Assembly (NCBI GenBank): GCA_021234155.1
Contig: JAJEKV010000034.1
Location: 9,189,614 to 9,253,613 of the forward strand
Source: Isoetes taiwanensis
Lineage: Eukaryota > Streptophyta > Lycopodiopsida > Isoetales > Isoetaceae
Reading direction: 5' to 3'
Length of the DNA: 64,000 bases
Part shown: one piece after another, positions 7,603 through 40,292 of the stretch
How the letters are laid out: each line of letters begins with the position of its first letter
Position numbering within the stretch: the first letter of the stretch is position 1
The notes under the pieces: generated by a model
The model's database searches: none
The model's input: only the letters and a program-made list of their open reading frames with translations
Told to the model about the DNA's origin: nothing
Position numbers and translations under genes: made by a program

Positions 7603-8197
7603 TCATTTGGTCAATTTCAGCGCGTCCAAACTATTTGAAAGTATCCACAACCTGCAATCGCGAGAATTAGCACGAGGTTGGAATAAAATTAGACAAAATT
7701 GGACATAAAATACTGACAGAATGGTCTTTGGTGTTGCACATATCCAGCAGGAACCTCTTGATGAAACATACGGTGTAAATTCCACAATCTTGGGTGTTTT
7801 CCTGCTGGGGGGCATTCAAAGGGACGCTGGAGGCATTGTGCAATCGTGAGGACTCGAAATTCCACCTCTTCATAATGTCAGGCATGAAGCTGTGGGCAAA
7901 GGAATGAGAGAAAAGCCAAATTCGACCGGAAAGGGGTAGACTTGAACTTACAAAGTGGCGAATTATGTTCGAGTGCATGCCCGGCATTGAATCCAAATGC
8001 AGCAATACTAGACATGGGGTTTCGAGCATCCAACATGTCTCCTGGTCTGAAACCAATATGAATAGGCTCCAGTGATTGCTGCCAACAATTGCACAACCAG
8101 TTTTTAGCATCCAATTGTCCATCAATGAATTTAAAACGGATTGTTTACATGTTGATGACTGGGAAGTAATAGAATTCCATGTTCTGGGGAATAGCAT
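7603..8197 (-). pseudogene. Ulp1-like C48 cysteine protease domain
   Basis: The frame at 7667-8197 carries the papain-like Ulp1/SENP catalytic pattern in order: His in NHWSLFIL (about residue 42), Asp in LLHLDSMPGMHSN (about residue 69), and the oxyanion Gln and nucleophile Cys in PQQENTQDCGIYTVCFIKRFL (about Q132 and C138). Family members cleave SUMO or SUMO conjugates. Plant MULEs of the Kaonashi type carry such domains, with unknown substrate. All catalytic residues are present. However, the reading frame breaks near 8100 (a second frame at 7878-8114 also shows Ulp1-like text), and 7603-7815 reads in another frame. Either unrecognised introns or decay explains this. It is on the minus strand, downstream of the zinc-finger and coiled-coil region. 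Confidence 0.75.
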
Positions 8198-8346
8198 GTA
8201 TTAAGGCCATGTAGATGGCAATGTAGTCAGCGAATGATAGCATTGCAATGCTTTAATAGAACTGAAAAATGTGACTTACAGGAGATAAGCACCGACACAC
8301 TCTTCTTTCATTCTACAATCCACATTATCTCTGGGACCAGGGACCG

Positions 8347-9539: not shown

Positions 9540-9929
9540 CTGGATCGTGGTTGTGACAGGAAAAAGACAAGATTTCGAGCAGGAGGAGCAAAGGCGCCGG
9601 AATGAAACTCTGAGAGAGAATTTTGGAAACAGAGAGAGAGGGATTTTTTGGCGCTAACTAATGGTTGTGATTCCTTCGGACGGGTTCACTATCCTTAACG
9701 ATTGACGTAGAAGATGGTGATAGGCCAATGTCCCTGCAATCATACACTTTGTTAGGGTACAATGTACGACTATTAATGGCAGTCGTCCGGAATTCAATTC
9801 AAAAGTTCCTTTGAAAAGCTTGGCCTTAAATATTAAAATAGGTTATAATAAAATAAACACGGAGTATACACCATGGATATCCCATGCCGACGTGGCTAGG
9901 ACGGCCTGGATGAGTCCTTCAGGGGCGGT

Positions 9930-10584
9930 GATTCCATCTAGTTGATTCACAGTGTGGTGATTCCGTTTGGCGGATACACAGTGTGGTGATTCCATCTGGC
10001 TGAATTACATTGTGGTGATTCCGTCGGGTGGAAGTGCAACGGGGTGATTCCGTCTGGCGGAATTACAAATCGGTGACTCCGTCTGGCAGAATTACACTGT
10101 GGTGATTGCGTCGCGCAGAAGTGCAATGCGGTGATTCCGTCTGGCGGAATTACAAGGTGGTGATTTCGTCCAGTGGAATATTTCACGTGGTGATTCCATC
10201 TAGCGGGATATCGCCGACGGTATTCCGTCCCGTGGGATCTGCCACTGGTGATTCCACGGGGGCGAATGCTAGAATGTGATTCCATCTGGGGGTATCAAGG
10301 CAGTGTGATTCTGTCGCGTGGAATAAAGGGGTGGTGATTCCGTCCCGCAGTATTCTACCGTTGTGATTTCACCGGGAGGTATAGAATGGATGGCCAGGAT
10401 GCACCCTACAAACGGACGACTGGGATCCATCAGAGGGTACACTTGACACGGTCAGATACGGAAAATGGGACCTCCAGAACGGATCCCGTTCCCGGAGGGT
10501 CTGCGATTCTGCGGGAGAGTATTCACCGAAAACTGCGATAAAGCTATTTTCACCAAAACTGCGATAAAGCTATTTTCACCCTAT
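9930..10584. repeat. Right long TIR of Ulp1 MULE, 29-bp palindrome array
   Basis: GTGATTCC starts at 9928, 9957, 9986, 10015, 10044, 10073, 10102, 10131 and 10160, an exact 29-bp period, before drifting. Each unit carries an ATTCCG-N5-CGGAAT hairpin. The outer part (10390-10584) is unique sequence shared in reverse complement with 3651-3850. It ends at CTATTTTCACCCTAT. Confidence 0.8.
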
Positions 10585-10858: not shown

Positions 10859-13209
10859 ATGTCGTTCTTAAAAATGGCCTCCTGTAGCTCCTCCGATCAA
10901 ATCTTCGTCATGCCAACCTCCTCTTCTTACACTATCAAAGCCAGCAGTTCCTTTTCTAGCTGCAACACTCATTCCCACTGGCACAAACTGCCTTCTTGCA
11001 AGGCAAGCAGGTTGGGTCTGGTTACACCCAGATTTCCGTTTTCTGTTTTGTCCCGGACCAAGTACCCTTTAAAGCCCGGAATATGGATGCAACATGGTCT
11101 GTCTTCCTTAGTTTCACAAAAAATTTCTGGACTATGCTCTGCTACTGAAGGTGACGGCGAAGAATTGATTTTAGAGCCCAGGTATGTTTCTTATCGCCCT
11201 TAGGCCGTTTGTGTTTTTGTCAGTAATATGTAATTCGAGTCATGTATCTGTTGCAAGGTAGAAATTTTTCTATATCGGAGCTCTCCTGCTATAAAGATGT
11301 TCACCCTCAAGGGCCTCTGATTTTTGAACAGCTACGAAATTCCACAGCTCAGTTTTCTGGACAAACACCCTACAGTGGCGACTGGCTTTCTTTTTTTTGA
11401 GTGGTGATTCCCTAGTCCTCCGTTTTTATTTCCTGTAATATATTAGTTTTTTTTTCTAGATAGTGCTAATGTCAGCTGGAAATGCGATCTGCAGGTCTAT
11501 ATTGAATGCGATTTTCAATGTGTTGAACAAGAAGATCTACTTTTACTTCCCTTACCCATTGTAATTATTCTTGTTACATGAAGGTTTTTGTGGCAATTAA
11601 AATGCCTTGAATATTAGTAATAAGAAAGAAATGTCATTTGCAGCTTCATGTCCGTGGTGCAGTTAACGGTTGGAGGCATTTATAGTGTTGTTTGTTGGAC
11701 ATTGAGGACACCAAAACGGGCTGTAAGTTTGAGACTGTAGCTTAAATTTTCAAATTTTCTGCTTTATGTTTTAAAAGCGGACTGTGCTAATGGTGGTACT
11801 GCAGCCACTTACTAAAGAGCTGATCCACTTGCTATTGCCGCTCTCATTCTGCCATGCTTTTGGGCACATGATGACAAATGTTTCATTTTCCACAGTGGCT
11901 GTTTCCTTCACGCATACCATCAAAGGTGACATATTATAGAAACATGGAATTTTCTTTTGATTCGTGTACATAGAGGAGGTAATCTATAGACACAATTTAA
12001 GATGGGAAAAAGTTTTCTACTTGTTACTGTTACTTGTGGAAACATGTGATTGTTAATGCCTAAGGCTACTGTTTAATTCTTCGTTTCATGCGTTGAACAT
12101 GCAGCCTTGGAGCCTTTCTTCAATGCAGCTGCATCACAATTTTTTCTGAGCTCTCCTGTTCCTCTTACTGTTTGGCTTTCGTTGGTGCCAGTTGTATTGG
12201 GTAAGATTCTGACACCAGATCTTCGCTATACGTTCTCCTTAAAGACTACATTTACATACTTGAAAACTGCCTTTCTAGGTGTTGTGTTAGCATCCGTGAC
12301 AGAAGTTTCATTTAATTGGAAGGGCTTTCTTAGTGCTATTTTATCCAATGTGGCTTACACATATAGAAACATTTATTCAAAGCAAGCAATGGTGAGCATC
12401 AGGGGATGGCATTTGCTTATAGGATATGCAAAATGATATATGTAAGATTTTGGCTTCTTGCAGAAAGGTGTTGATAGCACAAATCTTTATTATTACATCA
12501 CACTCCTATCATTGATCCTGTGTATTCCACCAGCAATTGTGGTAAAAACTTGCACTTATTATACTGAATACTTAAATTTCTGCTTGTATTATGAACTGGT
12601 GCTTACCTTTGTCAATGGTATAGATTGAAGGTCCAGCGCTAATGCAACATGGTCTTCCCAATGTTATAGCAAGTGTTGGATATAAAAAATTTCTTTATGA
12701 TCTCCTTGTGGCAGGACTATTCTATCATTTGTACCAACAGGTAATTCTGGCAGATTAATTACGTGCAAACTGTGCTAGATTTGACGTTGGTAATGTTCAT
12801 TATAGATTGGAAACAACACCCTAGAAAGAGTATCTCCACTGTCTCATGCAGTGGGGAATGTCTTGAAAAGAGTCGTGGTCATTACGTTCTCTATCCTAGT
12901 CTTTGGTAAGTATTCTCTGCCCCCCTCTCCTCCTTTTTTTTAATGTAAGAATAGCAGTTGCAATTGTGGATTGATTATCCTCTCTTTTCGGAACAGGTAA
13001 TAGAATAACTCTGCAAACTGGAGTGGGCACTACTATAGCCATCACTGGAGTTGCACTATACTCTTATTTAAACGCTCAAAAAGAAGCACAAAAAGTGGTA
13101 AATTGTTTATGTCATTACATGTTATTTCAAAAATTTTATGGTTTAAAAAATAATATGGCTATGTTTTTAACAGAAATTGCTACAGAGCATTAAAGGGACG
13201 ATAGAATGA
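10859..13209 (+). CDS. TPT: Plastid triose-phosphate/phosphate translocator
   Basis: Antiporter of the plastid inner envelope that exports triose phosphate or 3-phosphoglycerate in exchange for phosphate. Twelve GT-AG exons: 10859-11181, 11332-11403, 11495-11560, 11644-11722, 11805-11925, 12105-12200, 12279-12391, 12464-12541, 12624-12740, 12806-12905, 12997-13097, 13174-13209. They sum to 1302 nt, an open frame of 433 residues, close to the usual TPT precursor length. Exon 1 encodes a Ser-rich transit peptide. Family landmarks follow: [65 protein letters not shown] and [21 protein letters not shown]. The substrate-binding Lys (HTIK) and Lys-Arg (LKRV) are kept. NAAASQF and [10 protein letters not shown] favour TPT over the PEP or xylulose-5-phosphate translocators. 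ATG at 10859 is preferred; another lies at 10874. Intact. Confidence 0.93.
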
Positions 13210-21480: not shown

Positions 21481-21660
21481 CAACTTCAAGAACTCAAAAG
21501 CAACACAAAAATAAAGCTTGCCAACAAACTTAGGACTAAAACTTATCACACTGCTAACAAATTTTGAATTTTAAAGGTCCTTAATCTTTCCTGTTACTAT
21601 TCCTATCTTATTCAAATTTCCCATCAAAAGTAGTTTTCCAAGTCTTGGAACAATAAGTAG

Positions 21661-21681
21661 TTTTTGAGGTCAAATAAGGGC
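21661..21681 (+). repeat. Left terminal inverted repeat
   Basis: T5 followed by GAGGTCAAATAAGGGC, the exact reverse complement of 34917-34937. Confidence 0.6.
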
Positions 21682-21689
21682 CTCGTAAG

Positions 21690-22900
21690 AATATATTAGG
21701 GGGGCCGCCACGTAGGATCCCAAACCTAGCTTCCCCCCCTCCATACCTAACTTTCACTCTCCCCTAACCTAACTACCTAACCTCCGAACCTAACCCCGTA
21801 GCTAACTTTGTAATCATTATTTCCCTACTTGACACAGATATTTGATGATTATTTACCTTGAGCTTATGCCGCCGAGCTTCGGCGCCATCGTCGAAACTTG
21901 CCTACGCCATCGACCTTGCCGCCAGCCGCCGGCGTAGCGATCTTGCCATGGAGTGCGGGCGGTTTTGAATTTGAATTATGGCGGATTCTTGCCGGCAAAT
22001 AGAGAAGCGAAAATTTTCAATTTAAAATACGTTTTGATTCAACAGAATCTTCTAATCTAATCTACACTCAGTTCATGGAATAAATTACTACTCCTATATT
22101 TTTAATATAGCCAAATAGGTTTAGCTAAACTACCTTCAAATTGGAGCTAGAAGTTTCTAACACTTGGCTAACCTAATTGGTTTTTCTCCATCATGGTTTC
22201 TTGCCTTTGGCTAAACTTCCACAAAATGTAGAGTCAAATATTAGCCATCACACTATCCATATTAAGGATCCAAGCCTTTACACAAAGACATTGAACTTAT
22301 TGTTATTACAGTGTAATTCAATAGAGAAAAATAAATCGTGCATAATGTAACATAAATGGCACAATTATAATCATTGTTATAACTTTGTTAATATAAAAAT
22401 AAAACAAAGACATAAATTAATAAACATATACGCACATGTTCAAAGCTCAAAGAAAAAGTGCAGTGTTCCTTTTAAATGTGATCCTCCCTCAGATAATTCA
22501 ACTTCGTACTTGAGATAAGAAGTTACTACTTCAACTTCGTACTTGAAACAAGAAGTTCTTTGTTGATTTCATAAAGTTTCTGTATATCTTGGTGTTTGAT
22601 ACTAAGCTAATCCATCTATTTTTCCAAGTCCACTCTTTCTTAGGTTTGGCTAATTGTTGTCCTGGTGGAGTTGTCTGGAGGTGGAGGTTTGGCTATCCTA
22701 TCTAGAAAATCACTTAGTCGGCAAAAAAATTGGGCTAAACTTTTCTTTTTTTGGGCAATTTTTTCAATTTACTTTAGCCATTTTTCTTGGCAAAAATGCT
22801 ATAAAATAGCCATTTGGCTAACCTTAGCCGTTATTTTATTCCATGCTCCGGTTCTCGGTCTTTTGCAACGTCAATGGCAAAGGTATTTGGTTTCCGAGTT
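21690..22900. other. AT-rich non-coding left flank of the element
   Basis: Begins with C-rich text containing repeated CCTAAC(T/C)T runs (about 21720-21800), then AT-rich DNA with no coding character. Confidence 0.4.
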
Positions 22901-22918
22901 GTCATTGCATTCCTTTGA

Positions 22919-25372
22919 GTGTTCTTCCTTCTAATACTTCTGTTTCAGGATCAAACTAATTCCGAGGGTCAATTTAGAGTGCAAGTGCCAAAAGAATGCC
23001 TGCCTTATAGGAATAAGTTCACTTGGAAGCAACCAATAGATGAAGATGCATTGCGAGCTTCTGGAGCCATGAATATAGACCTCTGGGCTAAAGGCCAACT
23101 GTATCCATGTGATCCTTTCAGTCGAGCCCATCCAAACTTCCACTCTGCATCCGGTCTTATTGAATTTGCTTGTAAGGGACAGCAAGGGTTACTAGGTTAC
23201 TGTAATAATTTGGTTAATGGTAATACTGATCCACATTTGCGTGCCATGTATAACCACTTGTATGGATTCAATTGCAAAGTTTTATCGATGTTAATCAGCT
23301 CCAACAGCTGAACTATTTTTACGTCTCAACAATGCCGCAAGCTCAATGAATTGGAGGTAGAAAATCAGAAATTGGTGATGAGATGAATGCACCTGCGACA
23401 AAAGGAATGAAGAGGGTTGCGCAAGAAAAAATGATTCCCTTCTACAAGCGGGTCAAACGCTTGAAAAGAACTCCACCGGGATCGGGGAGAAGGCAAAAAA
23501 CCTGAAGCCCATAAATATATTAGCCCCTGGGGGTGGAGGCTCAAAAAAAAGGGTCATGGCTATTAAAAAGCTTGTTGATCCAAATCTTGCAGAAGAAAAT
23601 AAGAGAAAACCTGCTAATATTGCCGGTTTATTAAAGAAATTAGTTACTAAAGATGATGTATTGAGAATGTTAAAGCTTCCTGGTAGCATTCAACTTAGGA
23701 AAGTCGTAGTACATCAACCATGCGTGAGTTGGGGAAACAGTCAAACCTCGAAATCGATTAAAGAACTGTGTGACAATGTCTAATAAGTAGGCAAGCTTAT
23801 ATTGCTTTGTTCAAATGCTTGCAGGATGGCCTTAAACAACAAGGCATTACCAAAACTATTCTACTACCAAGGATGACTAGTGTGAGGACTTGTAGGTCAT
23901 CGAGAAACAGACAAGTGCAAGAGCTTCTTGGTGATATGTATCAGCTGACCAGCAGTGTCAACTTGGATACATTGGCATCCTATACCAAAGGTAAGAAGAA
24001 GTCGAAGTTTGGTGATACTTTCTGCCTTAATGAAAATAACAATTCTTTGGATAGACTTAACTAGAATGCTTCAGCTTTTGGTTCGATTTTATGATATGAA
24101 GGTAGAAGAGTCTTACCGGCAAACTAAGAATTGTTTTGAAGCTGGATGAAATGGAATTGGTGAAAGGCGAGAAGTACGAGGGGTTTCACCGAGTCTAATG
24201 AAACGAGCTTTGAATACAGGGGAATGAAGAGTCAAATCTAGATGGTAAGTTTTCCGTCCAAATCGAAGATCACATTTGGTGGGTTGGTTTATTTCACGCA
24301 CTGCAGGAAAATCACGCGATAATCTTTGAAATGGGTTTTGATCAAACACCCATTCCCACAATGATTGCCTCTCACGGAATCGGAGAAAAAAACTTGCGCC
24401 TCCCTGGATATGGTGAGTCACGAGGTTGAATGGCATCTTCTTTGCCCAGATTTGAAGACAATAAAATACATGTACGTAATGAAGCATGGTGCTGGTAAGA
24501 CTACTCATGCTTGTCCCTACCGCCTCTATGCAAGAAGAGATTCAGCTGGATTGGACAAGAGTACATTAGACTGTGTCCAGGATGAGCCACCAAATAGAGA
24601 AGAGAAGGACACAACCTTGATGCCAATTCGCCAATTCTGTTAAGAAGAGTACACATATGCACCCTTCATGCTTTCTTGAGAACATAGACAAGATGGTTTA
24701 CATGAGTATCCCGTTTGCTTGGAATAAATCACCCCAAAGCTCTAGGGAAGCTGCCATGCATGAAGTTGAAAAGGTGCTATCTAATGTGGGACTTCATGGT
24801 GGGCACTACAAAATATTTCAAGATCCAAAGGTATCCCAAGCAAGGTTCCCCGAAACCCAAAAGATGGGTGGTCCAAAGGCTAAGAGGTTTTGCCTCCCCG
24901 CGAAAGAGAACTTATCCGTGTTTGGGAAGCTTACAAGGATCTTATTGCAGTGAGGATGATCGAAAATGATCGTGGGCGATCACGCTGAAGAAAATCAAGG
25001 CATGGCGAGGATTTCTCCAGACCGGTAAAGGAAATGCGTAGAAAAAGGTAGTGCGGGGAAAATGATGTTGCCAAATTCCGTGAGGCAACATCACAAACTT
25101 CACTAAGTCTTTCCCCGACGGCATGGGGTGAGGCCAATTTGACTCACTATGTCCATATTCTGTTCGCACATAGCGTGTGGTTTGTCAGGGAATATGGAAG
25201 CCTGGGAATTTGGAATACACAGGGAATGAAGAAGTCCCATAAGCAAGCAAAGAATGCATTCTTCCGTTTCACTCAACACGAGGTTCGGTTAAAATTCCTT
25301 GCGGCAGATGTGTCAATGGTTTTGAAAGGATCGCGTGTGCAAATGGGTGAAGAAATCACGGAACCGAAGTGA
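22919..25372 (+). pseudogene. Decayed unknown gene, possibly the element's transposase
   Basis: Plus-strand coding text scattered over three frames. It starts after a possible acceptor at ~22950 with VPKECLPYRNKFTWKQPIDED, then IDLWAKGQLYPCDPFSRAHPN and LVNGNTDPHLRAMYNHLYGF. Later parts include KKLVTKDDVLRMLKLPGS (23556-23783), LTSSVNLDTLASYTKGKKK (to 24064), EVEWHLLCPDLKTIKYMYVM and KHGAGKTTHACPY (24365-24643). The end is REYGSLGIWNTQGMKKSHKQ, AKNAFFRFTQHEVRL (25139-25372). The last block resembles the N-x-G-x-E-x-S-H-x-FFR ending seen in some transposon proteins of animals and algae, but I cannot name the family. Stops and frameshifts make it non-functional. It converges with the minus-strand block. 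Confidence 0.4.
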
Positions 25373-25619
25373 ATCAACACTTGCTAAGTTGTTTAGACAA
25401 AAAACCCAGCGGGAAAAAAAAAGAGGGAAGCTTGGTATAAGTCCGCAGCTGTTGAGCGATCAAGGGAGTAGAGATCAATGAGATGTAGGCAAGGCAAAGG
25501 TTATGTCCGTATTGAGAGCTCTTGATAACGTCTCTACTGTAAAAGAGTTGGTTTATTTATCAGTTCGATAATGCTCAGTGTGCGAAATGCTGTATTGTAA
25601 GTAAATTGGATGCATGTAC

Positions 25620-26005
25620 TGCGCGCCGCGGGCCCGGTGTCGAAAAATATGGGGCCGTAACTAAAACCGATCCGCGTATTTAAGCACCGTAGCCGCGGTG
25701 CGAAAAATAAACCCCTTCAATAATTTGTAATCGAAATCGATTTACGCGACCGTGGCGACGGTGCGAAATATGGGCCTGTAACTAAACTGGATCCACGTAT
25801 TTCGCACCGTAGCCACGGTGCGAAATAGGCCCTTCAATAATTTATAACTCAGTCGATTTCGCACCGTGGCTACGATGCGAAATAGGCCCTTCAATAATTT
25901 GTAACTGAGTCGACTTCGCATCGTGGCTACGATGCGAAATAGGCCCTTCAATAATTTGTACCTGAGTCAATTTCGCACCGTGGCTACGGTGCGAAATATG
26001 GGCCA
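25620..26005. repeat. Palindrome array 1 (57-bp period)
   Basis: About six copies of TTTCGCACCG-N6-CGGTGCGAAA. The last four are exactly 57 bp apart (TCG at 25802, 25859, 25916, 25973). The spacer reads TAGGCCCTTCAATAATTTGT and is specific to arrays 1 and 2. The array lies between the convergent ends of the plus-strand remnant and minus-strand gene A. Confidence 0.9.
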
Positions 26006-26009
26006 GTAA

Positions 26010-26078
26010 CTAGAGAATATTAACATATTAGAGAACATATTAACATATTAGAGAATATTTAGAGAACATATTAACACG
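26010..26078 (+). repeat. AGAGAATATTAACATATT short tandem repeat
   Basis: Four imperfect copies of an AGAGAAYATTAACATATT unit next to array 1. Confidence 0.7.
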
Positions 26079-26161
26079 GTATCATATGAATTATTTATGA
26101 TAGATAGCAAAGGTTACTAAAGACCACGGCAGTATGTCCCTAGTAACCTTCCCCTAGGTTC

Positions 26162-26752
26162 CTAACCCCTTCCCCTTTCCATTCCCCCGCGAGGGGTAAC
26201 CCACGCAGCTGGGTTAGGAAACCAGAGCTCACGCGTATCCCAACCTGATTCTTCCCACCATATGGGGTACCTAGTCATTAGAAAAAGTAATTCCACATGA
26301 TGATACTCATGGAAAAAGAGCGGACCCAACTCCACAAAGTTGTTGTACTCGTTGTAGTACGTCCTAATAAGGCCATACATCTGTCCCTTACAAATTTCAT
26401 GAATGAACTCTGATATGTATTGATCCAGAGAGTGTGCTAAATAACCAGCACGAAGAAGAGGCCTGAACTGCTGTAGCATCTCGTCCAGATAAGGAGGGGG
26501 TTCAAGAATTCCCCTCATTGCAAGTCTCCTATAACATTCAGATGGATTAATTTCCATCAGTGGCTCATGACCACAATCAAATCGCTCCAGAATGAAGTTG
26601 ATCAACTCCATTGCAAGCTCCTTGGTGGGACTGTGGTGCAACCTCCACTCCAAGAAATGGTCAAATAGCTCATCAGTTTTAGGCCGCACAGAATGCCTGG
26701 GGCATGCTTGCAGGCCTTCTGGAGTAGCCCAGGGAGGATTGGGTCCAATCAT
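26162..26752 (-). CDS. Unknown protein A of the duplicated pair
   Basis: A 196-residue open frame starting at the ATG at 26750-26752; the upstream in-frame extension has no ATG and is simple repeat. It aligns over its first ~110 residues with protein B (27896-28243): PWATPEGLQAC / RWADPEYLQAC, PTKELAMELINFILERFD / PTTELARQLINFTIDRYT, then EINPSE / EINSSQ, and ILEPPPYLDEMLQQFRPLL / LLEPPSDLEDRLEQLKDML. The C-terminal part (IWWEESGWDTRELWFPNPA) has a weak counterpart in separated frames at 27738-27920. It is not recognised; no catalytic motif is visible. A CT-rich leader (GA-rich on plus) lies upstream. Confidence 0.5.
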   Translation of the reverse strand: MIGPNPPWATPEGLQACPRHSVRPKTDELFDHFLEWRLHHSPTKELAMELINFILERFDCGHEPLMEINPSECYRRLAMRGILEPPPYLDEMLQQFRPLLRAGYLAHSLDQYISEFIHEICKGQMYGLIRTYYNEYNNFVELGPLFFHEYHHVELLFLMTRYPIWWEESGWDTRELWFPNPAAWVTPRGGMERGRG

Positions 26753-26774
26753 TTGCAAAAGCAAGCAAGGATCA

Positions 26775-27110
26775 CTGACGGCGCAAGGAACAAGGAGCAG
26801 AGCAAGGAACAAGGAGCAAGAAGCAAGGAAGAAGACCAAGTAGCAAGGAACAAGGATCAAGATCAAGTAGCAAGAAGCAAGGAACAAGGAAGATCAAGGA
26901 GCAAGAAGATCAAGGAACAAGGAAGACCAAGTAGCAAGGACCAGGAAGATCAAGTAGCAAGGAACAAGGATCAAGATCAAGTAGCAAGAAGCAAGGAACA
27001 AGGAAGATCATGGAGCAAGGAAGCAAGGAACAAGATCAAGTATCAAGATCAAGAGCAAGGAACAAGACCAAGTAGCATGAAGTAGCACGAAGATGAAGGA
27101 GCAAGAAGCA
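26775..27110 (+). repeat. GA-rich minisatellite upstream of gene A
   Basis: Tandem AGCAAGGAACAAGGA / AGATCAAGTAGCAAG units, almost free of pyrimidines other than C and T in fixed positions. On the minus strand it is a pyrimidine-rich leader just 5' of gene A. Confidence 0.8.
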
Positions 27111-27119
27111 AGGATCACG

Positions 27120-27235
27120 ATCAATTAGCAAAGAACACGGAACACAAGGTGAGAAGTGAAAGCAAGGTGAGAACACGAGAAGTGAAAGCAAGGTGAAAAC
27201 ATGGAACAAAGGTGAGAAGTGAAAGTAAGGTGAAA
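27120..27235 (+). repeat. GTGAGAAGTGAAAGCAAG tandem repeat
   Basis: Four imperfect copies of an ~18-30 bp GTGAGAAGTGAAAGCAAG unit continuing the purine-rich tract. Confidence 0.7.
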
Positions 27236-27344
27236 GAATTTATAGATACGAATCCAATAATGTTGAAGTATAATACTAATACTGTTGAAGTATAATACCA
27301 AGAAAGTTGAAGAATAATACCAATAATGCTGAAGTATTATACCC

Positions 27345-27540
27345 TTTGGTGGTGGCGAAATAGGCCCTTCAATAATTTGTAACTGAGTCGATTTCACACC
27401 GTGGCTACGGTGCGAAAGATGGGCCTGTAACTAAACTGGATCCACGTATTTCGCACTGTAGCCACGGTGCGAAATAGGCCCTTCAATAATTTGTAACTGA
27501 GGCGATTTCGCACCGTGGCCACGGTGCCGAATATGACCAC
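27345..27540. repeat. Palindrome array 2 (57-bp period)
   Basis: Three full copies plus one partial copy of the 26-bp palindrome, at 27394, 27451 and 27508 (exact 57-bp steps), with array 1-type spacers. Confidence 0.9.
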
Positions 27541-27895
27541 AAATAAAACATTCACATGAGAAAATACAAGGAAAATGGTAGAAGAAATCATTCAATTACA
27601 CTAAAAGTGTAAGATTGCCAAGATAATACATGATAATATGAGGATGTTACTTAATTACACGGAAATCACTTGCTTATATACTTAATTTCTATGAAAATCT
27701 TTATACCAGTTTATACACATATTCCAATGGAGTATCTTTACCTGTGATATGTACGTATTATGTGCTGTGTGCTATGTAGCCATAGGTCACGTGTATCCCA
27801 AGGAATTGTATCCCAGGTGCGGCTTACCAATATCCACAAAAGATTTGTAATGGAAGTTCTAAAGTTCAATGAGGATATAAATCCTATTCTTCTCA

Positions 27896-28243
27896 CTAGT
27901 AGGAATGACCAGAGGCACATGAGTAGGCCATGAAACCATGGAAAAGCATGTCCTTCAACTGTTCTAGCCTATCTTCTAAATCTGAGGGGGGTTCAAGAAG
28001 TCCCAAAGCACTTAGAGTGAACCTTGCTTGACTCGAATTGATCTCCTCCAGTGGAGGGAGATGACGAGTATAGCGATCGATGGTGAAGTTGATCAGCTGC
28101 CTTGCAAGCTCTGTGGTTGGACCGTGACGCCATCGATGCTCCCAAAAGTTGCAAAAAAAGTCATCAAAAGTGCACGTATTTCTTCCGCATGCTTGCAGGT
28201 ATTCCGGATCAGCCCAGCGAGGATGTTCTTGCAAAGTTACCAT
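27896..28243 (-). CDS. Unknown protein B of the duplicated pair
   Basis: Open frame of 115 residues from the ATG at 28241-28243 (starts MVTLQEHPRWADPEYLQAC); the extra upstream residues have no ATG. It is paralogous to protein A as listed there, sharing LQAC, the ELxxxLINF helix, EIN and the LEPP motif. The end AYSCASGHSY departs from protein A. Further A-like text (ISSLNFRTSITNLLW, DTRDLWL) continues at 27738-27890 in another frame, so an intron or frameshift is likely. No known domain recognised. Confidence 0.45.
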   Translation of the reverse strand: MVTLQEHPRWADPEYLQACGRNTCTFDDFFCNFWEHRWRHGPTTELARQLINFTIDRYTRHLPPLEEINSSQARFTLSALGLLEPPSDLEDRLEQLKDMLFHGFMAYSCASGHSY

Positions 28244-28254
28244 TTGCAAGAAAT

Positions 28255-28395
28255 TAGTGGAGCAGACAAGAAACAACTAGTGGAGCAGACAGGGAGGCAA
28301 GGAGCATGCAAGAAAGGAGCAGACAGTGAGGCAAAGAGCAACAAGAAGCGGACAGGGAGGCAAGGAGCATGCAAACAAGAAGCAGACAAAGACAA
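28255..28395 (+). repeat. GA-rich repeat upstream of gene B
   Basis: Units of GGAGCAGACAGGGAGGCAA and GGAGCATGCAAACAAG. The position 5' of gene B mirrors the purine-rich leader of gene A, though the units differ. Confidence 0.7.
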
Positions 28396-28578
28396 TGAAG
28401 GCATAGATGCCTATTTAAAGAGAAACCAGGTATATATGCTATATACGTACATTATATTTACATGTGTATTTTGTACATTATGCTCGTATGTATAACCAAT
28501 AATGCTGCTACAGCGCATGTCAATAATTTTGTTCGATATAAGTACGGCTCCACTCAATGCAGAAGGCATCCATTTGCT

Positions 28579-28863
28579 ATGTCTCGGCCTGATTATTCTT
28601 ATTACAGGGGGTCTATCTTGCCTCCTCGTCCCGAAGATATGGACTCCATTACTTGCACTATGACATATAATGATCTTTATAGATGTTCTCAGAGGGGTAT
28701 CCCCCTTGATCCCTGGCTGGAAGGAGTAGCAGAGGGTCGAAATCGTTCTTCTGGAGGGTTTTATCGTATTGTTATCCACCTTTGGAGGGTTCCAGAGCGT
28801 CGCGTCTATGAGATTAATCGCATCACTCAACTACTTGCTCATGATGATCCCGATTGCGAATGA
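28579..28863 (+). CDS. Small unknown plus-strand protein
   Basis: Open frame of 94 residues from the ATG at 28579 (MSRPDYSYYRGSILPPRPED) to the stop at 28861-28863, with MDSITCTMTYNDLYRCSQRG and FYRIVIHLWRVPERRVYEIN. Composition looks coding and the frame is uninterrupted, but I do not recognise it. It is the only plus-strand open frame in this part of the element and is divergent from gene B. Confidence 0.35.
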   Translation: MSRPDYSYYRGSILPPRPEDMDSITCTMTYNDLYRCSQRGIPLDPWLEGVAEGRNRSSGGFYRIVIHLWRVPERRVYEINRITQLLAHDDPDCE

Positions 28864-29065
28864 ACTTCTGCATTCATATATGCTATGCCTCTTATATGAG
28901 TTCTAAGTATATGCTATGCCTCTTATATGAGTTATAAGTATGCAACCATAAGTGATACATGTGATCCGTCTATTTACCGCACATTTTCAATTTGGAAAGC
29001 TCTTGGCCATTTTCCTTACATGTAGATTCTAAATTCAGTTCAGCATTCTCTTCGCAGTGTGTGGA

Positions 29066-29215
29066 ATATTCTGTTTTGCACCGTAGTCACGGTGCGGAAT
29101 TGCGCCCTCCAAAAACTTTGGAACTACTATTTTCGCACCGTGGCCACGGTGCGAAATAGACCTTCCCACAGAATGTGGAATAGTCATTTTCGCACCGTGC
29201 CCACGGTCAACACTA
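29066..29215. repeat. Palindrome array 3 (57-bp period)
   Basis: Two full and one partial copy of the palindrome, at about 29076, 29133 and 29190 (57-bp steps). The spacers (GCCCTCCAAAAACTTTGGAA and similar) are unlike those in the other arrays. Confidence 0.85.
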
Positions 29216-29339
29216 GTAGATAAATACACAGCCGCAATAAATAGAATACCAAATAATTACAGATAAATATAAAACACTCATCACGATAAATATTAAAACA
29301 CTCATATATTAACAACCAAAAAAGGGTTACAAAAGGATG

Positions 29340-29930
29340 CTAAGGGAGGCATCCACGGAAGTATCTAGCTAAGGCATAGTCCCTGTCCTGCACAGTAACA
29401 CGTCCTCTGTGCACACAACAGCGGACACTGTCCTCAAAGAGGCTAATTAGATGAGCCTCTGCTGCCTCTTGCAGTATGTCCAAGGCCTCTGCTTGGATTC
29501 TATTCACCTCCTCCTCCACAATCGGGACGAAGTCTGGTGCTCTGTTTCTCCTCTTCCTCCTTGATTCCTTCCTCCTCTCAATAATTTCCTGCATCTCGTA
29601 CCTGACCATTATAGCGAAGGCAAGCTTGGGAATCAGAGGCTGGGTGCGTGCCTGCCAGTACCTAATCTCCCTCAAAGCCTGAGTGCCAGGAGGAGCACCC
29701 TTTATCTTCTCAGGGCCACCATATCTAACACTAGGCTCCCCTTCCTTAGGCTTCCGCTTATTCCCAAACTTATCTGTCTCCTTGGCTGCATCTCTCTCAG
29801 CTTGTCTCCAACTAGGAACAAGCTTAGGAGGCTTTGCCGGGTCAGATTTCTTCGGCGTGGATTTCCGCTGGCGCCGGGGAATGGGCTTCCTAGTACCAGT
29901 TCCACTAGAACTGGCCTTTCCGTGATCAAC
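29340..29930 (-). CDS. Divergent histone H3-fold protein
   Basis: Reading from a possible AG acceptor at 29931-29932, 196 codons are open. The N-terminus is an H3-like basic tail (GTRKPIPRRQRKSTPKKSD). Then comes PGTQALREIRYWQARTQPLI followed by PKLAFAIMVRYEM, matching H3's PGT-ALREIR start, αN and α1. Next is an extra basic/acidic insert of about 25 residues (RRKESRRKRRNRAPDFVPIV). The end is ALDILQEAAEAHLISLFED, CCVHRGRVTVQDRDYALARYF and RG, matching α2, loop 2 and α3 of H3. No ATG precedes it in frame (TAG at 29931-29933), so an upstream exon is required, perhaps the DUF8039-like segment at 30172-30753. It is too divergent to be a core H3; a CenH3-like or selfish-element histone is possible. 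Confidence 0.75.
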   Translation of the reverse strand, partial: VDHGKASSSGTGTRKPIPRRQRKSTPKKSDPAKPPKLVPSWRQAERDAAKETDKFGNKRKPKEGEPSVRYGGPEKIKGAPPGTQALREIRYWQARTQPLIPKLAFAIMVRYEMQEIIERRKESRRKRRNRAPDFVPIVEEEVNRIQAEALDILQEAAEAHLISLFEDSVRCCVHRGRVTVQDRDYALARYFRGCLP

Positions 29931-29941
29931 CTAATCCTGCT

Positions 29942-30050
29942 GAGCATCTTTGGTTCTGGCGATCGTCTTTGGATCGGTGATCTTTGGTCCGCTGATCTTT
30001 GCTTGATCATCTTTGGACCAGGTGATCTTTGGTCATCTTTGCACTTCCAT
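29942..30050 (+). repeat. GATCTTTGGTC minisatellite
   Basis: Six or seven copies of a 15-19 bp unit around GATCTTTGGTCCG in the gap between the H3-like exon and the upstream DUF8039-like segment. Confidence 0.7.
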
Positions 30051-30171
30051 AATCTGGTGCTGCCCTTGCTCCCCCTCACCACTGCCAAATATTTCGGAAT
30101 GCAGTGATGGTCCCAACGTCATAGACGAGGGGGTTACCTGATTCAATAGCCACTGGGCACCATGGCCCTGG

Positions 30172-30753
30172 TCAACCTGCCACACCACTTGGATGAGAAG
30201 AAGCCCCGGGTTTAATCATGTAATCGATCTCATTTATCAAGAACTGGAATGGCCGTGCCTCCATGCCGGACATGGATGTCATCAACCTGGGCCACATGAC
30301 GTATGACCCGACGGCTTCCTCTACTGTCTCCGCTCCAGGGGTGGGGAAGGGCAGACTGGCTGTTGGATCCAGAGCTGTGTCCACTGATACCACAATACAG
30401 TCGTCTGGAACTGGAATATTGTGGCAGACAGTGGCCTCACGGAAAACTCCTTCCCCAACAACATTACCGGCGCTCAGCAAGGAGACCCGAGTAGGAATCA
30501 CGTTTGGGTTTTGGAAATATTCGTCCACACTATTATTAATAGTGTGGACGACATTTCCGAGGCTTTGCCCGAACCCTTCTGGAAGGACATTCTCATCTAC
30601 GTCCATCTGCTGGCTTGTGATCGGAATAACTGTCTCGGTCTCTGTGATGGTAATAGCAGTCTCGGCGCTGCTAGTAATGACCTCCTCAACATTCTGGCGC
30701 TGGTCAAGCGCCTCATTTTGTGGGATTTCAGAGGTAGCGCCTTCCATGGACAT
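30172..30753 (-). CDS. DUF8039-like segment protein
   Basis: Open frame of 193 residues with a true ATG at 30751-30753 (MSMEGATSEIPQNEALDQRQ). The N-terminal 90 residues are acidic and Thr/Glu-rich. Residues ~95-165 read NVVGEGVFREATVCHNIPV, CIVVSVDTALDPTASLPFP and EEAVGSYVMWPRLM. That spacing (cysteine-His, V-x-VD, then a G-x3-V/I-x-WP end) resembles the DUF8039-type module known in plant CACTA-transposon proteins. This is pattern memory only. It starts 85 bp from palindrome array 4. It may splice to the H3-like exon downstream. Confidence 0.5.
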   Translation of the reverse strand: MSMEGATSEIPQNEALDQRQNVEEVITSSAETAITITETETVIPITSQQMDVDENVLPEGFGQSLGNVVHTINNSVDEYFQNPNVIPTRVSLLSAGNVVGEGVFREATVCHNIPVPDDCIVVSVDTALDPTASLPFPTPGAETVEEAVGSYVMWPRLMTSMSGMEARPFQFLINEIDYMIKPGASSHPSGVAG

Positions 30754-30834
30754 GAGCGGATTTTAGCAAGGGAAAGAAATTCAAATAAGCAATATTGTCT
30801 GTACCGATCCGATAAACCCGTAGACTAAAAAATG

Positions 30835-31075
30835 TTTACAGTAGCCACGGTGCGAAATCGGGCAGTCTAAAAACTGCCGACATCCCGTTTTCGCACCGTA
30901 GCCACGGTGCAAAATAGGGCAGTCCAAAAACTGCCGACAGCCTGTTTTCGCACCGTAGCCACGGTGCGAAATATGGCAGTCCAAAAACTGCCGACAGCCT
31001 GTTTTCGCACCGTAGCCACGGTGCAAAATCGGGCAGTCCAAAAACTGCGGACATCCTGTTTTCGCACCGTAGCCA
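30835..31075. repeat. Palindrome array 4 (57-bp period)
   Basis: Three full copies and two half copies of the palindrome at 30891, 30948, 31005 and 31062 (exact 57-bp steps). Each spacer holds a second hairpin, GGCAGT-N6-ACTGCC. Frames such as HRGYGAK repeats are array artefacts. It lies directly upstream of the ATG at 30753. Confidence 0.9.
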
Positions 31076-31326
31076 ACATTAAAGAATACCTAACATATAC
31101 ATCTAACAAGGATTTATTGCTGACATTGAATTCTAACAATTAATGAATATCATAAATGAACATTCATACAAAAGCAATTTCGTCATATGAAAACAATTGA
31201 TACATTATAGAAAAGACAATTTATAGAAAAGACATTATATTAATACAAAAGTTTTTTAAGTACATTTTCTTTTCTTGGCATCAGGGCCTGGAGTACCCGA
31301 ATCAAATTCTTCTAAGTCCTCTTCTT

Positions 31327-31740
31327 TTACAGATACAATATGTCAGGGTCCTTCTGTGCACAGGACAAGCGCAGTGTTTCCTTGTCCGCTCCACCCAAGC
31401 CTAGAGCTGCTTTATTTGCAAGGACAGAGTACATTTTGAAGCCCCCGAAGATATACATTGCAATAGCCCTATCTACCGCTACCACTCGATCATAGTTTGA
31501 GGCTAGGGGCACGTGGTTGCCAGCTACTTAAGCTTGAGGACCTCCTGTACTCCAGATGGACTATATTTATTGTGAAACACAATAATTTCCCCCTTGTAAA
31601 GGTAGCCCATATAATGTGCAATACTGGCGTCCCGACCTAGGGTGACTCTCTGATGCCTTGCACAGAAGTCATCAATAAATAACTCCCCGCATAAAAAGAA
31701 ACATCGATTCAAGAAGAAATAAAAAATGAAACCAGATAAA
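31327..31740 (-). pseudogene. Unrecognised coding fragment in two frames
   Basis: Minus-strand text LFIDDFCARHQRVTLGRDAS and YLYKGEIIVFHNKYSPSGVQ (31524-31700) continues after a frame change at ~31515 as NYDRVVAVDRAIAMYIFGGF and LANKAALGLGGADKETL (31327-31512). The two look like one protein separated by a frameshift or small intron. No domain recognised. It is part of the same-strand block of the candidate element. Confidence 0.35.
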
Positions 31741-31887
31741 TACCTCTCTTTTGTCCCATTCGACAACAGCTGGGTTTGTTATTTTGAAAGAGGACTTCGA
31801 CATCTCACGTTCTATGAATCTTATTTATCTTTGTATATCTTTAATGTTTGAAGAGCTAGCAGCTTCAAATTTGACATCTTTCACGCT

Positions 31888-32270
31888 TCATACCACATCT
31901 TCAGCTTGCTGCATGACAATTTCAAATGCATCCTCTGGAGGTATTGAGGATCTATCATAAGTCACATCCTCCATCATTTGTCTGGGGACATCAGTCTCAA
32001 AGTCTATAAGTCCTCCCAGGCCTACAACATGCGCATATATCTGGCCCAATATCTTGTCTTCTCTCAACCCTGTCACTTCAGATATGTCCGGCAGCAACAA
32101 GTATGGTTTTCCACCTACATGGATGGGATATGCTTCTGATAGTCTCCAAGTAGACAATTTTTTCTCGGAGACCTCCTCTTCCACAACCTCGATCTCCTCA
32201 TTTTCCAGTGCGAGCTTCTCTTCCTCAGGATCTATCGGCTCCTCTACTGGTGAGGCGAGGCGCTCGCTTT
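31888..32270 (-). CDS. Unknown acidic protein exon
   Basis: Continuous minus-strand frame. It begins with an acidic stretch (SPVEEPIDPEEEKLALENEE, IEVVEEE) and continues LSTWRLSEAYPIHVGGKPYL, LLPDISEVTGLREDKILGQI and VPRQMMEDVTYDRSSIPPED. It ends EIVMQQAEDVV at a stop overlapping a possible GTATG donor. No in-frame ATG was identified at its beginning, so it is probably an internal exon. Not recognised. Confidence 0.4.
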
Positions 32271-32381
32271 GAGCGACACACTTGAAGAAGAACCGGCATC
32301 TTTGCTTGGCTTAGTGTAAATCATGTATGTCTTTGAACATGATATCTAGGCCGAAAAAACTTTCCTTCCCTCTTGCCCGCA

Positions 32382-32744
32382 TTAGCGTAGTTTCTTCAAG
32401 AACCTTCTAATTCGGTCTTGATCAGGTTTCGGAAACATCTTAAGAAAAGCTTGCATGCTTAGTGAAGGCAAACCAGTCACAGAACATGGTTTCACGTCAG
32501 GACCAGCTCCAGCCATGAAGCTATGAAGGATGCCGCCATATGCATCAGTAAACCTGTTACACTCTGTCATAATGTCTACGCTCAGGCAAAAATTATTATA
32601 TACAGTGGTTGCATCCACTGGCTCCTCTAGCTCCTCCTCGAACTCTTCAGGATGCTTCTGACGAAAATCCCGTTCTTTCTCCACTATTTTGTCATACCAT
32701 GCGCTAAACAGCTCCCATGCCTTATCTGACCCGCTATTTGCCAT
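32382..32744 (-). CDS. Small unknown protein next to array 5
   Basis: Open frame of 120 residues from a true ATG at 32742-32744 (MANSGSDKAWELFSAWYDK) to the stop at 32382. Mid-part EEFEEELEEPVDATTVYNNF and DIMTECNRFTDAYGG; end MFPKPDQDRIRRFLKKL with a basic C-terminus. No recognised domain. Its ATG lies about 80 bp from the edge of palindrome array 5, the same arrangement as the DUF8039-like gene and array 4. Confidence 0.45.
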   Translation of the reverse strand: MANSGSDKAWELFSAWYDKIVEKERDFRQKHPEEFEEELEEPVDATTVYNNFCLSVDIMTECNRFTDAYGGILHSFMAGAGPDVKPCSVTGLPSLSMQAFLKMFPKPDQDRIRRFLKKLR

Positions 32745-32821
32745 TCTCGTGGAGCAGCGCCTCGATTTATGACAGTTAGAATGTGAGCGCCTTTGTAGCG
32801 GCTTGATTTGCAAGAGAGACT

Positions 32822-33255
32822 AACAACGTGGCAACGATGCGAAAATAACACTTCCTTAATTTATGCTATGCACAAATTCGCACCGTGACTACAATGCGAA
32901 AACAAGACTTCGATAATTTATTGTATTTACAATAATTGTACCGTAGCCACGGTGCAAAATTGTATTTTGCACCGTGGCTACGGTGCCAAAATACCCCTTC
33001 CATTTTTTATTCTATGCACATTTTCGCACCGTGGCTACGGTGCGAAAACAACCCTTCAATATCTTATTGTATGTATAATTTCGCACCGTGGCTACGGTGC
33101 AAAAATACCCCTTTCATTTTTTATGCTATGGACATTTTCGCACCGTGGCTACGGTGCGAAAATGGCCCTTCCATATTTTATGAGAGCCACAATTTCGCAC
33201 CGTAAGTACGGTGTGAAAACACATCCACAATCAGAGGTGTATATAATTTCGCAAC
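32822..33255. repeat. Palindrome array 5 (57-bp period)
   Basis: Eight or nine copies, including TCG positions 33024, 33081, 33138 and 33195 (exact 57-bp steps), with older degenerate copies at the left edge. The spacer is AT-rich (CCCTTYCATTTTTTATNCTATG) and specific to this array. Confidence 0.9.
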
Positions 33256-33345
33256 ATGGATACTTTAAGTCTTATATCCCAATGAAAGCAAATGTTTGCA
33301 ATTAATATACAATAGATCTCCAATTAACAATCACTTATATTTATA

Positions 33346-33777
33346 TTAGATAGATTCATATACAGATATGACTTTGGGTGGCATGCACCGCTTTCCCACC
33401 TTCTGGCCATCTATCATGAAATGGAAGAAATTTAAGTCTGTCTCAAACTCTAATTGCCGCCGAACATCGAATAGAGACCACTCGCTCTCCGCTCTCAGAC
33501 TTTTGAACAGCTGATTATCCTTATGAATGTTCAAGTCTATGACAACGGAATGAGTGTCATCATTGTCATCTTGTTCGACAGGAATCCAGACGTACTTTCT
33601 TCCTTCACGGACATTTCGCCATCTCCTACACTTAAATGTGACATACAGAGTTTGCTTCCGAATGCAATATCTGAACCGAACCGTGTCTCGACTTATCCTG
33701 CATTCAGTACATTCAGCTCTATCGTGAAGTTGAGCACTCCAACCTTCAAGAAATACACTATCTAAAAAACTATCCAC
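33346..33777 (-). CDS. Unknown Cys-containing protein exon
   Basis: Open minus-strand frame of about 143 codons without an ATG at its start (GTG only), so probably an exon. It contains a Cys pair (ECTEC) with later cysteines in RYCIRKQTLYVTFKCRRWRN, and KYVWIPVEQDDNDDTHSVVI. The end is LFDVRRQLEFETDLNFFHFM and IDGQKVGKRCMPPK, which looks like a small beta-grasp type fold. No confident assignment. Confidence 0.4.
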   Translation of the reverse strand: MDSFLDSVFLEGWSAQLHDRAECTECRISRDTVRFRYCIRKQTLYVTFKCRRWRNVREGRKYVWIPVEQDDNDDTHSVVIDLNIHKDNQLFKSLRAESEWSLFDVRRQLEFETDLNFFHFMIDGQKVGKRCMPPKVISVYESI

Positions 33778-33779
33778 CG

Positions 33780-33992
33780 ACTGTTGAACTGTATCTTCAA
33801 GGTCTTCTTTACATTGTCGGCGCTCTTGAATATGGCAATGAACAGATCAATTCCTAAATTTATCTTCACATGCCCGCAGACTCCTCCCTTCTCCTTCAAT
33901 GCCGTGAACATTTCCTGCGACAACTTACTTCGTGCTAATAAGATAGAAGTGGCATCCAGAGGCCTGCAGTATAAATCGGACAGGCTGGGCAA
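33780..33992 (-). CDS. Unknown exon of minus-strand block
   Basis: Frame reading LSDLYCRPLDATSILLARSK, LSQEMFTALKEKGGVCGHVK and LGIDLFIAIFKSADNVKK. It overlaps the start of the next frame at 33762-33777 in a different phase, consistent with an exon border nearby. Not recognised. Confidence 0.35.
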
Positions 33993-34255
33993 TGGAAGCT
34001 CAGTTAGCTTGGATCTTCGTGGAGAGTATTCATACCTCCAGAACCATATACCCCTTTCTCTGAGCTATACTGGTGTGCTACCTTCGAACAACAAGCAGCC
34101 CATATCTTGGTGAAAGCAATGGAATACACTGCTTATCGAGTGTGAAGAGACAGTGTTCTCCGCATCAGATATACACAAACATGAGAGAATAGGAATGAAC
34201 TGGATAAGTAACAGAACTAATTTGAATATGGATTGCATAGAATTACATTACTCAC

Positions 34256-34526
34256 AATTTGCTTCTAACCGTGGGAAAGTTCGTCGCTTGCTTATTTTTT
34301 CTTTTGCCATATCTGTTGGAGTGTATACATGCCTTACTTGTACAAATATCTCTTTGCCTGATCGAAATCCGACCACCAAAGCCTTCCAAAATGCAGAAAC
34401 ATCATTTCTCCTGCATCTTGTGACTCGCCATTCACCTCGCATTGCAGGTTGAAGTGTAACAAAGCTCCCGGTCGACACCACGAAGCTTTCAAACTCATTT
34501 CCGACTGTGATAAAGCTTATAGCCAT
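34256..34526 (-). CDS. First exon of minus-strand block, BAH-like
   Basis: True ATG at 34524-34526 (MAISFITVGNEFESFVVSTG). The text SFVTLQPAMRGEWRVTRC, then ALVVGFRSGKEIFVQVRHVY and TPTDM, has the order of a BAH domain: a variable G-x2-V start, an interior strand, and a V-x-V-x-H/W-x-Y-x-P-x-D/E end. BAH domains read nucleosomes or mediate chromatin protein contacts. The exon would end at a GTGAGT donor (34250-34255). The assignment is tentative because only part of the domain is on this exon. Confidence 0.4.
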
Positions 34527-34916
34527 CTAGTCACAGAATTCAAATCAGAATGTGGAGTGGAATCGAAATACTAGGAAAGGCTACGCGATTTTACCTTGAT
34601 CAAAGTTTTTTAGTGGTCGAAACTCCCTTTAGCGCAGGTCGAAGCAGTTCCCGAGTGAACCGAAGCTCCCTTGGCGCGGGCAATCGATCTTCGCGCAAAC
34701 TCTGTTGTGGAAAACACCTGAGCGGGAATTGAGGGCGGGAGCTAACGGTTATAATTGCCACGTGTGTAATCTGACACCCGAAGCTAGAGGCACGGATATT
34801 ACCGAAGCTACGTGCAGTTGACACCTGGAAAGGCGAAACCAAGGCTCGGTAAAAAAGTTCTGTACAAGCTCGGCTCCCCATTGGCCGCGAGCTTTTTGAC
34901 GTGGCATCGAGTAAGG

Positions 34917-34937
34917 GCCCTTATTTGACCTCAAAAA
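34917..34937 (-). repeat. Right terminal inverted repeat
   Basis: Reverse complement of 21661-21681; two further A bases and a C follow (34938-34940), giving G-T7-GAGGTC when read inward. Confidence 0.6.
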
Positions 34938-34999
34938 AACTCTAATGCTAAAAATGGCAGTAGAGACATGCTCTAACTGCATAAAGGAAGTCATGGTAT

Positions 35000-39261: not shown

Positions 39262-40292
39262 TCAAGTCGGATAACCTGGATCAGTATCTTTATGGCTGCT
39301 TTGGGCAGCATATAGAAATCCAAAGGATCCAACTATAGCTCCAGCCTTGCTGGAAGCTGCAGAAATACCATGGCATGTTGATCTGAGTTCTGCCGGAATG
39401 ATGAAAGTGGTAGCATTGGGCCCAAAATTAGCGAAGAAGAAAGTGAAGGCATATAAGACTAGAAATGTTGTATGATGCCCGCCGCACCAACCTTGGCTGC
39501 ATTTAGTACCTCTGAGAGAGTAATATGGAATAGAAATTGCCAGCATGAAGGCAGTCATGAAGAAAAATCCGAGCAGCTGGATGGGTTTTCTTCCGATTCT
39601 GTCTACCAATGCAATTGTGAAAAAGTAACCTGGAACTGTGGCACAGAAGGCAATCAAAGCCTGAGCACTGGCTACTCTATACAGCTCCGTTAAAGCACTC
39701 ATGGCTATTACAGGTGGAAGCCAGCCTATAGCAGTCAGCACATCTTTCTGGAACAAATTTTGACTGTAAAATGCAATATCCAGAAAGAACCAAGTCGTTG
39801 CAGTGCCCATGAGCTGAATTCCATGTTTCCTTGCAAATTCCCAGCTAAATAACTCATATTGTTATTTTTCAGCCTCTTTGTCAGGGTTTTAAATTTGCGG
39901 AGAACTACGGTCATGACCACAGCCATGTCTGCGGTGGCTTTACGTATGTTGCCTTCAACCGGGCGATTAATGTCATCCGGTTCAAGGCATCCTCATTAAG
40001 CCCCAACCATGAAAATAATTCTCCACGCAAAAGTCGACTGTGGAGCGATTAGACGAACCGGATTTTCGGCAAAAGTTGGTCTTGGAAATTCGTTCTTAAA
40101 AGCCGTAGAAACAATAATCGAGATGGTTGCAGCGACTAGAATTCCAATTCCTTGCATGGCAAACATAGCAGCGACAAAAGAGCCCCTGGTTTTGGTGTTA
40201 GAATATTCTGACATAATAATAGCAGAAAGGGGATAATCTCCCCTGATTCCAAAGCCAAGCCAGAATCTGAAGAAACAGAGGGTAGTCATCAC
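39262..40292 (-). pseudogene. PHT1 phosphate transporter pseudogene
   Basis: Minus-strand text of a plant PHT1 high-affinity H+/phosphate symporter (major facilitator family). First comes [20 protein letters not shown] with the adjacent [14 protein letters not shown] (39996-40292). Next is NRPVEGNIRKATADMA near 39930, and [20 protein letters not shown], then [13 protein letters not shown] (39740-39870). Last are [38 protein letters not shown] and [11 protein letters not shown] (39262-39810). The first ~110 residues, the loop after MVGA, and everything after GYP are missing. A frameshift at ~39850 and stops near 39990 break the frame. The signature GGDYPLS is changed to RGDYPLS. Not functional. 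Confidence 0.85.

Follow-up and report, generated by a model that had tools for sequence, protein, structure and literature searches.

Positions 21651-34947 of the window, the 64,000-nucleotide stretch of Isoetes taiwanensis DNA analysed here (contig G000:C1039 of the 1.66-Gb assembly), are one copy, now decayed, of a DNA transposon that is old, high-copy and multigenic; its terminal inverted repeats measure 32 bp, and a divergent histone H3 gene is resident in it. The explanation that we consider best overall is a multigene transposon that defends itself by histone-variant anti-silencing targeted to its own palindrome arrays; we give it a probability of about 45%, and we infer the whole of its chromatin mechanism.

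The longest exact inverted match in the window is 22 bp (21661-21682 against 34916-34937), one base more than the perfect 21-bp repeat that an initial annotation of this DNA had taken as the bracket of a large element. Other copies in the genome lengthen the repeat to 32 bp, which sets the bounds of the element given above. The full repeat begins CATTAGAG and was perfect in most ends compared, a share that is biased upward by the ranking of ends according to their similarity to those of the window. The left 100 bp (21661-21760) gave 281 genome candidates, the best 40 of them each at least 96%, and the right 113 bp gave 515, the best 40 each at least 97%. For ten left ends we took a 20-kb stretch each and aligned these stretches to the window: the same ends, inverted, bracket colinear copies of 13-15 kb elsewhere, so the paired copies that the initial annotation had proposed to look for do exist. 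Three of them (on contigs C930, C907 and C1072) were read across the whole element and matched the window colinearly over its full length, with identities of about 81-94% per block and some local insertions. The remaining compared copies were partial or broken, and C1067 had only 190 bp in common with the window. The segment 22024-22844 was absent from 8 of 10 compared copies (at this place C1013 carries a different, longer insert and C1067 fails to align) and is probably a later insertion into the window element. The window contained no Rfam match at gathering score.

The frame to which a histone H3 fold had been assigned matched the Pfam family Histone (PF00125; E 2.2e-15, 57.4 bits against a cut-off of 26.4) and PDB H3 chains at 1.4e-16. 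The two matched blocks are separated by 29 residues, against 6 in the best PDB chain, and the tail motifs ARKS and ARTKQ were absent from all four element H3 stretches that we checked. Genome-wide, several of the best 150 of 5556 candidates for the element H3 were full-length and open. We regard the gene as resident in the transposon because at 27 of the 40 right ends scored a listed H3 lay within 12 kb on the inner side, on the expected strand; for 24 of these 27, one lay at 5.0-5.9 kb. A listed H3 was found inside on the opposite strand at none of the 40 ends and outside at one.

The five arrays consist of one 26-bp palindrome and lie 3' of five of the six minus-strand genes (A, B, H3, E and F; not D). 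Their confinement to the element within the window, noted at the outset, was upheld: all 30 matches (up to 3 mismatches; a site may count on both strands) fell at 25680-33161, with none in 100 shuffles. The window and ten copy stretches together held 114 units, 65 of them distinct, although C1067 contributed none. Over 63 consecutive units the majority base was kept on average at 91% in the palindrome and at 59% in the 31-bp spacer, and 60 of 75 gaps were exactly 57 bp. Between arrays (window, C930, C907, C1072 and C1013), consensus identity was 24-26 of 26 positions for the palindrome and 10-20 of 31 for the spacer. Since the palindromes are near-identical and spacer agreement exceeded that of shuffled spacers at 5% in 7 of 10 comparisons, the five arrays probably descend from a single unit, the spacer of which has drifted. 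The conservation of the palindromes and not of the spacers makes it plausible that the palindromes are putative protein-binding sites. Across the 65 distinct units, 128 stem changes were one-sided and 6 two-sided, 2 of the latter still pairing; because the changes are mostly one-sided, it seems to be a DNA site, not RNA pairing, that is conserved. In the genome there were 570 exact sites with the two loop bases free, and none for a reversed control. Ends and arrays do not occur independently of each other: 21 of 50 listed sites (of the 570) had a listed end, transposase or H3 no more than 12 kb away, against about 0.2 expected. Some of the listed palindromes lacking such a marker recur at about 1.2 kb on C3, C35, C394, C479 and C904, and also at about 2.2 kb on C35 and C479; they may be part of another repeat, either derived from the element or unrelated to it.

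The long plus-strand gene had been described as decayed, and its C930 copy is open for 797 residues with no in-frame start at the head; in our reading, there may be a short first exon. This 797-residue protein matched no Pfam family at cut-off and no PDB chain (its best sub-cut-off Pfam matches, coiled-coil-like at 0.005, were not used), and the patterns that we used confirmed no relative in IMG/VR contigs. Within its own genome, the best 57 of 4451 candidates reached down to 49% identity. Conserved blocks in the protein contain D, D, CxxC and E. By its position and these blocks the gene is probably the transposase, which would then be of the DDE type. Among the matches listed, a transposase lay inside 9 of 40 left ends and outside none of the 40.

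Gene content was read in three subfamilies (I, II and III), with one element each for II (C1026) and III (C1084). The plus-strand gene and gene F are kept in all three; H3 and the palindrome arrays between genes are present in I and II, not in III. The C1026 element is 12.1 kb long, with 9 mismatches between its two terminal repeats, and its plus-strand protein is 66% identical to the subfamily I form (66-70% across group II). Genes D and H3, which adjoin in subfamilies I and II and are possibly one gene, are plus-strand genes in C1026, placed between the transposase and gene A, and are located elsewhere in subfamily I; we therefore read the D-H3 block as inverted and moved between the two subfamilies. 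With up to 8 mismatches allowed, C1026 has palindromes at 3844-4015 and 5668 of its stretch and again at 10947-11129, thus on both sides of D-H3, and none between C and E (the D-H3 site in subfamily I) or between A and B. The arrays of the D-H3 block may have moved along with it. The C1084 element is 8.25 kb long and likewise has 9 mismatches between its right and left repeats.

Left ends with CATTAGAG were seen in four transposase subfamilies, chosen by protein. The ten further relatives of the transposase comprised six of group II, two of group III, one (L053) that is 74% DNA-identical to III, and one (L054) that represents group IV. The motif heads the element in four of the ten (L050, L051, L054 and L057). 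No exact CATTAGAG occurs in L052 or L053, though both should reach the element head, and the remaining four stretches begin inside the element. L050 and L057 are 98% alike exactly to CATTAGAG, and there their likeness ends.

The remaining cargo is listed with the other features in Table 1. Genes A, B, H3, D, E and F are on the minus strand and the small gene C on the plus strand, in agreement with the mostly minus-strand frames reported initially. Gene A is a paralogue of B (40%, 4e-40), and C is one of C2 (31%, 2e-9). Gene D may be DUF8039-like; Pfam returned nothing similar up to E 10. Sub-cut-off Pfam matches for gene E (NRD1_2, 0.0038) and for its subfamily II form (Cnl2_NKP2, 0.024) were not used. 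Many of the best 135 of 2213 genome candidates for gene F were open at 45-62% identity, and one match lay about 2 kb from a subfamily IV transposase, on the opposite strand. Part of gene F exon 2 may resemble plant BAH domains; neither the exons of gene F nor two spliced models matched such a domain in Pfam. The initial proposal of a large inverted-repeat element with chromatin-type cargo was thus sustained in its many copies, its colinear elements and the linkage of H3 to the ends; its possible BAH protein was not borne out by profiles. Purine-rich and 22-bp tandem repeats occupy 26784-27233 and 27254-27343 upstream of gene A, and AGCAGACA-type repeats occupy 28282-28388 upstream of gene B; both have similar counterparts in the subfamily II element.

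Table 1. Features of the transposon copy, in window coordinates.
Feature	Position	Strand	Remarks
Left terminal inverted repeat, 32 bp	21651..21682	+	6 mismatches to family form
Long plus-strand gene, decayed; probably the transposase	22919..25400	+	open in C930; genome relatives
Palindrome array 1	25645..26012	.	3' of gene A and 3' of plus-strand gene
Gene A, paralogue of B	26162..26752	-	no known family
Palindrome array 2	27355..27546	.	3' of gene B
Gene B, paralogue of A	27741..28243	-	broken in this copy
Small gene C	28579..28863	+	paralogue C2 in other copies
Palindrome array 3	29060..29207	.	3' of genes H3 and C
Divergent histone H3 gene, open part	29340..29930	-	Pfam, PDB, genome copies; further 5' in other copies
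Gene D	30172..30753	-	directly 5' of H3; no Pfam match
Palindrome array 4	30838..31075	.	3' of gene E, 5' of gene D
Gene E, apparently more than one exon	31259..32744	-	no known family; no Pfam match at cut-off
Palindrome array 5	32824..33263	.	3' of gene F, 5' of gene E
Gene F, two exons	33346..34526	-	no Pfam or PDB match
Right terminal inverted repeat, 32 bp	34916..34947	-	perfect against family form

Selection was gauged by the pooled ratio of non-synonymous to synonymous substitution rates (dN/dS) from matches of at least 65% identity only, in which pairs share one reference and are non-independent and dead copies pull values towards 1. The ratios were 0.29 for C2, 0.46 for H3, 0.52 for E1, 0.54 for B, 0.58 for D and for F1, and 0.61 for the plus-strand gene, followed by 0.69 for E2, 0.79 for A, 0.82 for C, 0.86 for F2, 0.88 for E3 and 0.89 for F exon 1.

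The mechanism that we propose would run as follows. A DDE-type transposase would act on the ends and leave no lasting target-site duplication. An element protein (A/B, D, E or F) would bind the 26-bp palindromes as a dimer on the 57-bp grid, and this binder would place nucleosomes holding the element H3 at the 3' ends of the element genes. Normal H3 has an ARKS motif around K9 and around K27; because the element H3 is without it, the methyl marks by which plants silence chromatin could not be set on these nucleosomes, and transcription of the element would remain possible. The H3 match is the sole basis on which the cargo may be supposed to act on chromatin. The wider claim, that CATTAGAG ends without a target-site duplication mark a new plant DNA transposon superfamily whose larger forms are self-defended by their own H3, loaded at the palindromes, is a tentative one that we would sooner doubt than accept.

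Other roles for the palindromes would leave the histone out of account. They could be sites for an accessory transposition protein, like the TnpA sites in CACTA elements, with H3 unrelated to them. A conserved 26-bp palindrome, held mostly in a 57-bp register and present in subfamilies I and II, is what such sites might look like; yet the arrays are found between genes and not near the ends (the nearest in the window is 4.0 kb from the left end and 1.7 kb from the right), and the subfamily III element does without palindromes, so we think this account somewhat unlikely. We rate as unlikely the idea that the palindromes are 3'-end signals or insulators between packed genes, acting as DNA or RNA hairpins, with H3 as a separate passenger. 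For A, H3, E and F an array does follow the stop codon at 83-184 bp on the 3' side (that of B is 350 bp from the broken frame), but the predominance of one-sided stem changes indicates that RNA pairing is not conserved, gene D has no array at its 3' end, and termination leaves the 57-bp register unexplained. H3 could instead be a captured fragment of a host gene, carried as a functionless passenger. Captured gene pieces are described as frequent in plant DNA transposons and as usually non-functional in the pertinent sections of a review (PMC13317346), and many of the H3 copies are broken. Such a fragment would hardly be expected at the same place and on the same strand in 27 of the 40 right-end copies, nor kept in subfamily II, where the plus-strand protein has diverged to 66% identity, nor with a pooled dN/dS of 0.46 and several full-length open copies; we consider it improbable. 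Least credible to us, and very improbable, is an integrated virus: the many small, tightly packed genes and the histone gene would suit one, but inverted repeats bracket hundreds of candidate copies, the 797-residue protein has no IMG/VR relative by the patterns used, and no viral Pfam family was matched at cut-off among the frames scanned.

Palindrome-targeted defence by a histone variant must itself be weighed against several results. The AlphaFold model of H3, built from 3 sequences, was weak (predicted local distance difference test score, pLDDT, 56), and its one PDB match, a nucleosome entry, had E 0.73, with none at E 0.001. The model of the transposase core, from 11 sequences, had a pLDDT of 39 and was useless. 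The H3 frame of the window and many H3 copies in the genome lie in decayed elements, and 13 of the 40 right ends had no H3 among the matches listed, although misses there are not absences. The other 29 of the 50 listed palindrome sites had no listed marker nearby. In C1084, the single subfamily III element, only the plus-strand gene and F were found, with no H3 and no palindrome, which means that H3 and the palindromes are not needed for mobility. Finally, the dN/dS values of A, C, F2, E3 and F exon 1 (0.79-0.89) are near neutral, and that of E2 is 0.69.

The flanks bear on how the transposon is classified. In none of nine element pairs did we see a direct flank repeat longer than 2 bp, the target-site duplication that had been suggested as a mark of insertion: the match was 0 bp for the window, C907, C1072, C1013, C243 and C1026, 1 bp for C930 and C1084, and 2 bp for C1068. 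For C1013, C243 and C1068 the two ends were matched up from their contig, strand and distance rather than by reading through, and the age of the elements and rearranged ends could mask duplications in some pairs. Insertion appears to proceed without a target-site duplication. We considered a CATG target in which AT is duplicated, and also a duplication of 1 bp; no flank match was general across the nine pairs. The C930 element sits inside another open frame (G000:C930 near 10897668 and 10910623), whose halves, by our reading, would be in frame with each other on the loss of one base or the gain of two at the join. Assignment to the DNA transposons is by inverted ends and colinear copies only, with no target-site duplication found, and the group may already bear a Repbase name. 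A Mutator-like assignment (MULE, VANDAL) is not supported: the 9-10 bp duplication was not seen (longest 2 bp in 9 pairs) and the 797-residue protein has no MULE Pfam domain. The 32-bp terminal inverted repeats do not fit a Helitron, whose ends lack such repeats.

Elsewhere in the window, arrays of a 29-bp unit at 4022-4292 and 9927-10255 lie in opposite orientation about 6 kb apart and are probably another transposon; the minus-strand frame between them (7667-8200) resembles what we take to be a ULP1-type protease. The closest PDB match of the frame at 39262-39861 is inorganic phosphate transporter 1-11, presumably the rice protein, and the frame at 47874-48803 presumably resembles a sugar-phosphate isomerase. 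A long CAC-rich low-complexity repeat lies at 53191-53593.

Among the papers listed from the open PMC library, judged by title and opening of the abstract, we found none on such an element, and the phrase 'transposon-encoded histone' was absent from those checked for it (subscription papers, preprints and Repbase lie outside that search), so a prior description is possible; the word histone is missing from the main text of a gene-capture review that covers Ulp1 and VANC (PMC13317346). If the proposed mechanism is true, the transposon counters chromatin silencing with a histone variant of its own, the question of how transposons remain active in large plant genomes becomes directly testable, and a natural, sequence-targeted histone variant is at hand with candidate sites already known. 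The ends and transposase may, moreover, define a transposon group that is invisible to current Pfam models.

Among known systems, the CACTA (En/Spm) elements of plants resemble the transposon described here in that their inverted repeats start with CA and they carry palindromic sites in arrays. CACTA was our first idea, taken from the palindromes as subterminal arrays, and was rejected: the ends here are CATTAGAG, no 3-bp duplication was seen, no TNP2-type or other CACTA-family Pfam transposase domain was matched, and the arrays are internal. The Mutator-like VANDAL elements of Arabidopsis, with their VANC proteins and tandem motif arrays (PMC5735166), are also multigene plant DNA transposons with non-coding arrays of tandem motifs, and an element-made escape from silencing is proposed in both cases (PMC5735166, PMC13317346). 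In the relevant passages of these sources, VANDALs are described as lacking terminal inverted repeats and no histone gene is mentioned, whereas the Isoetes element has 32-bp repeats, an H3 gene and a palindrome. The closest parallel for the histone is with divergent H3 variants such as Arabidopsis H3.15, in which K27 is replaced and which is described as removing H3K27me3 and de-repressing genes (PMC10426802): both are H3 proteins without a silencing lysine context that resist, or in our case would resist, a repressive mark. H3.15 is a host gene, whereas the element H3 is borne by a transposon, differs in its tail and has helices 1 and 2 joined by a much longer loop.

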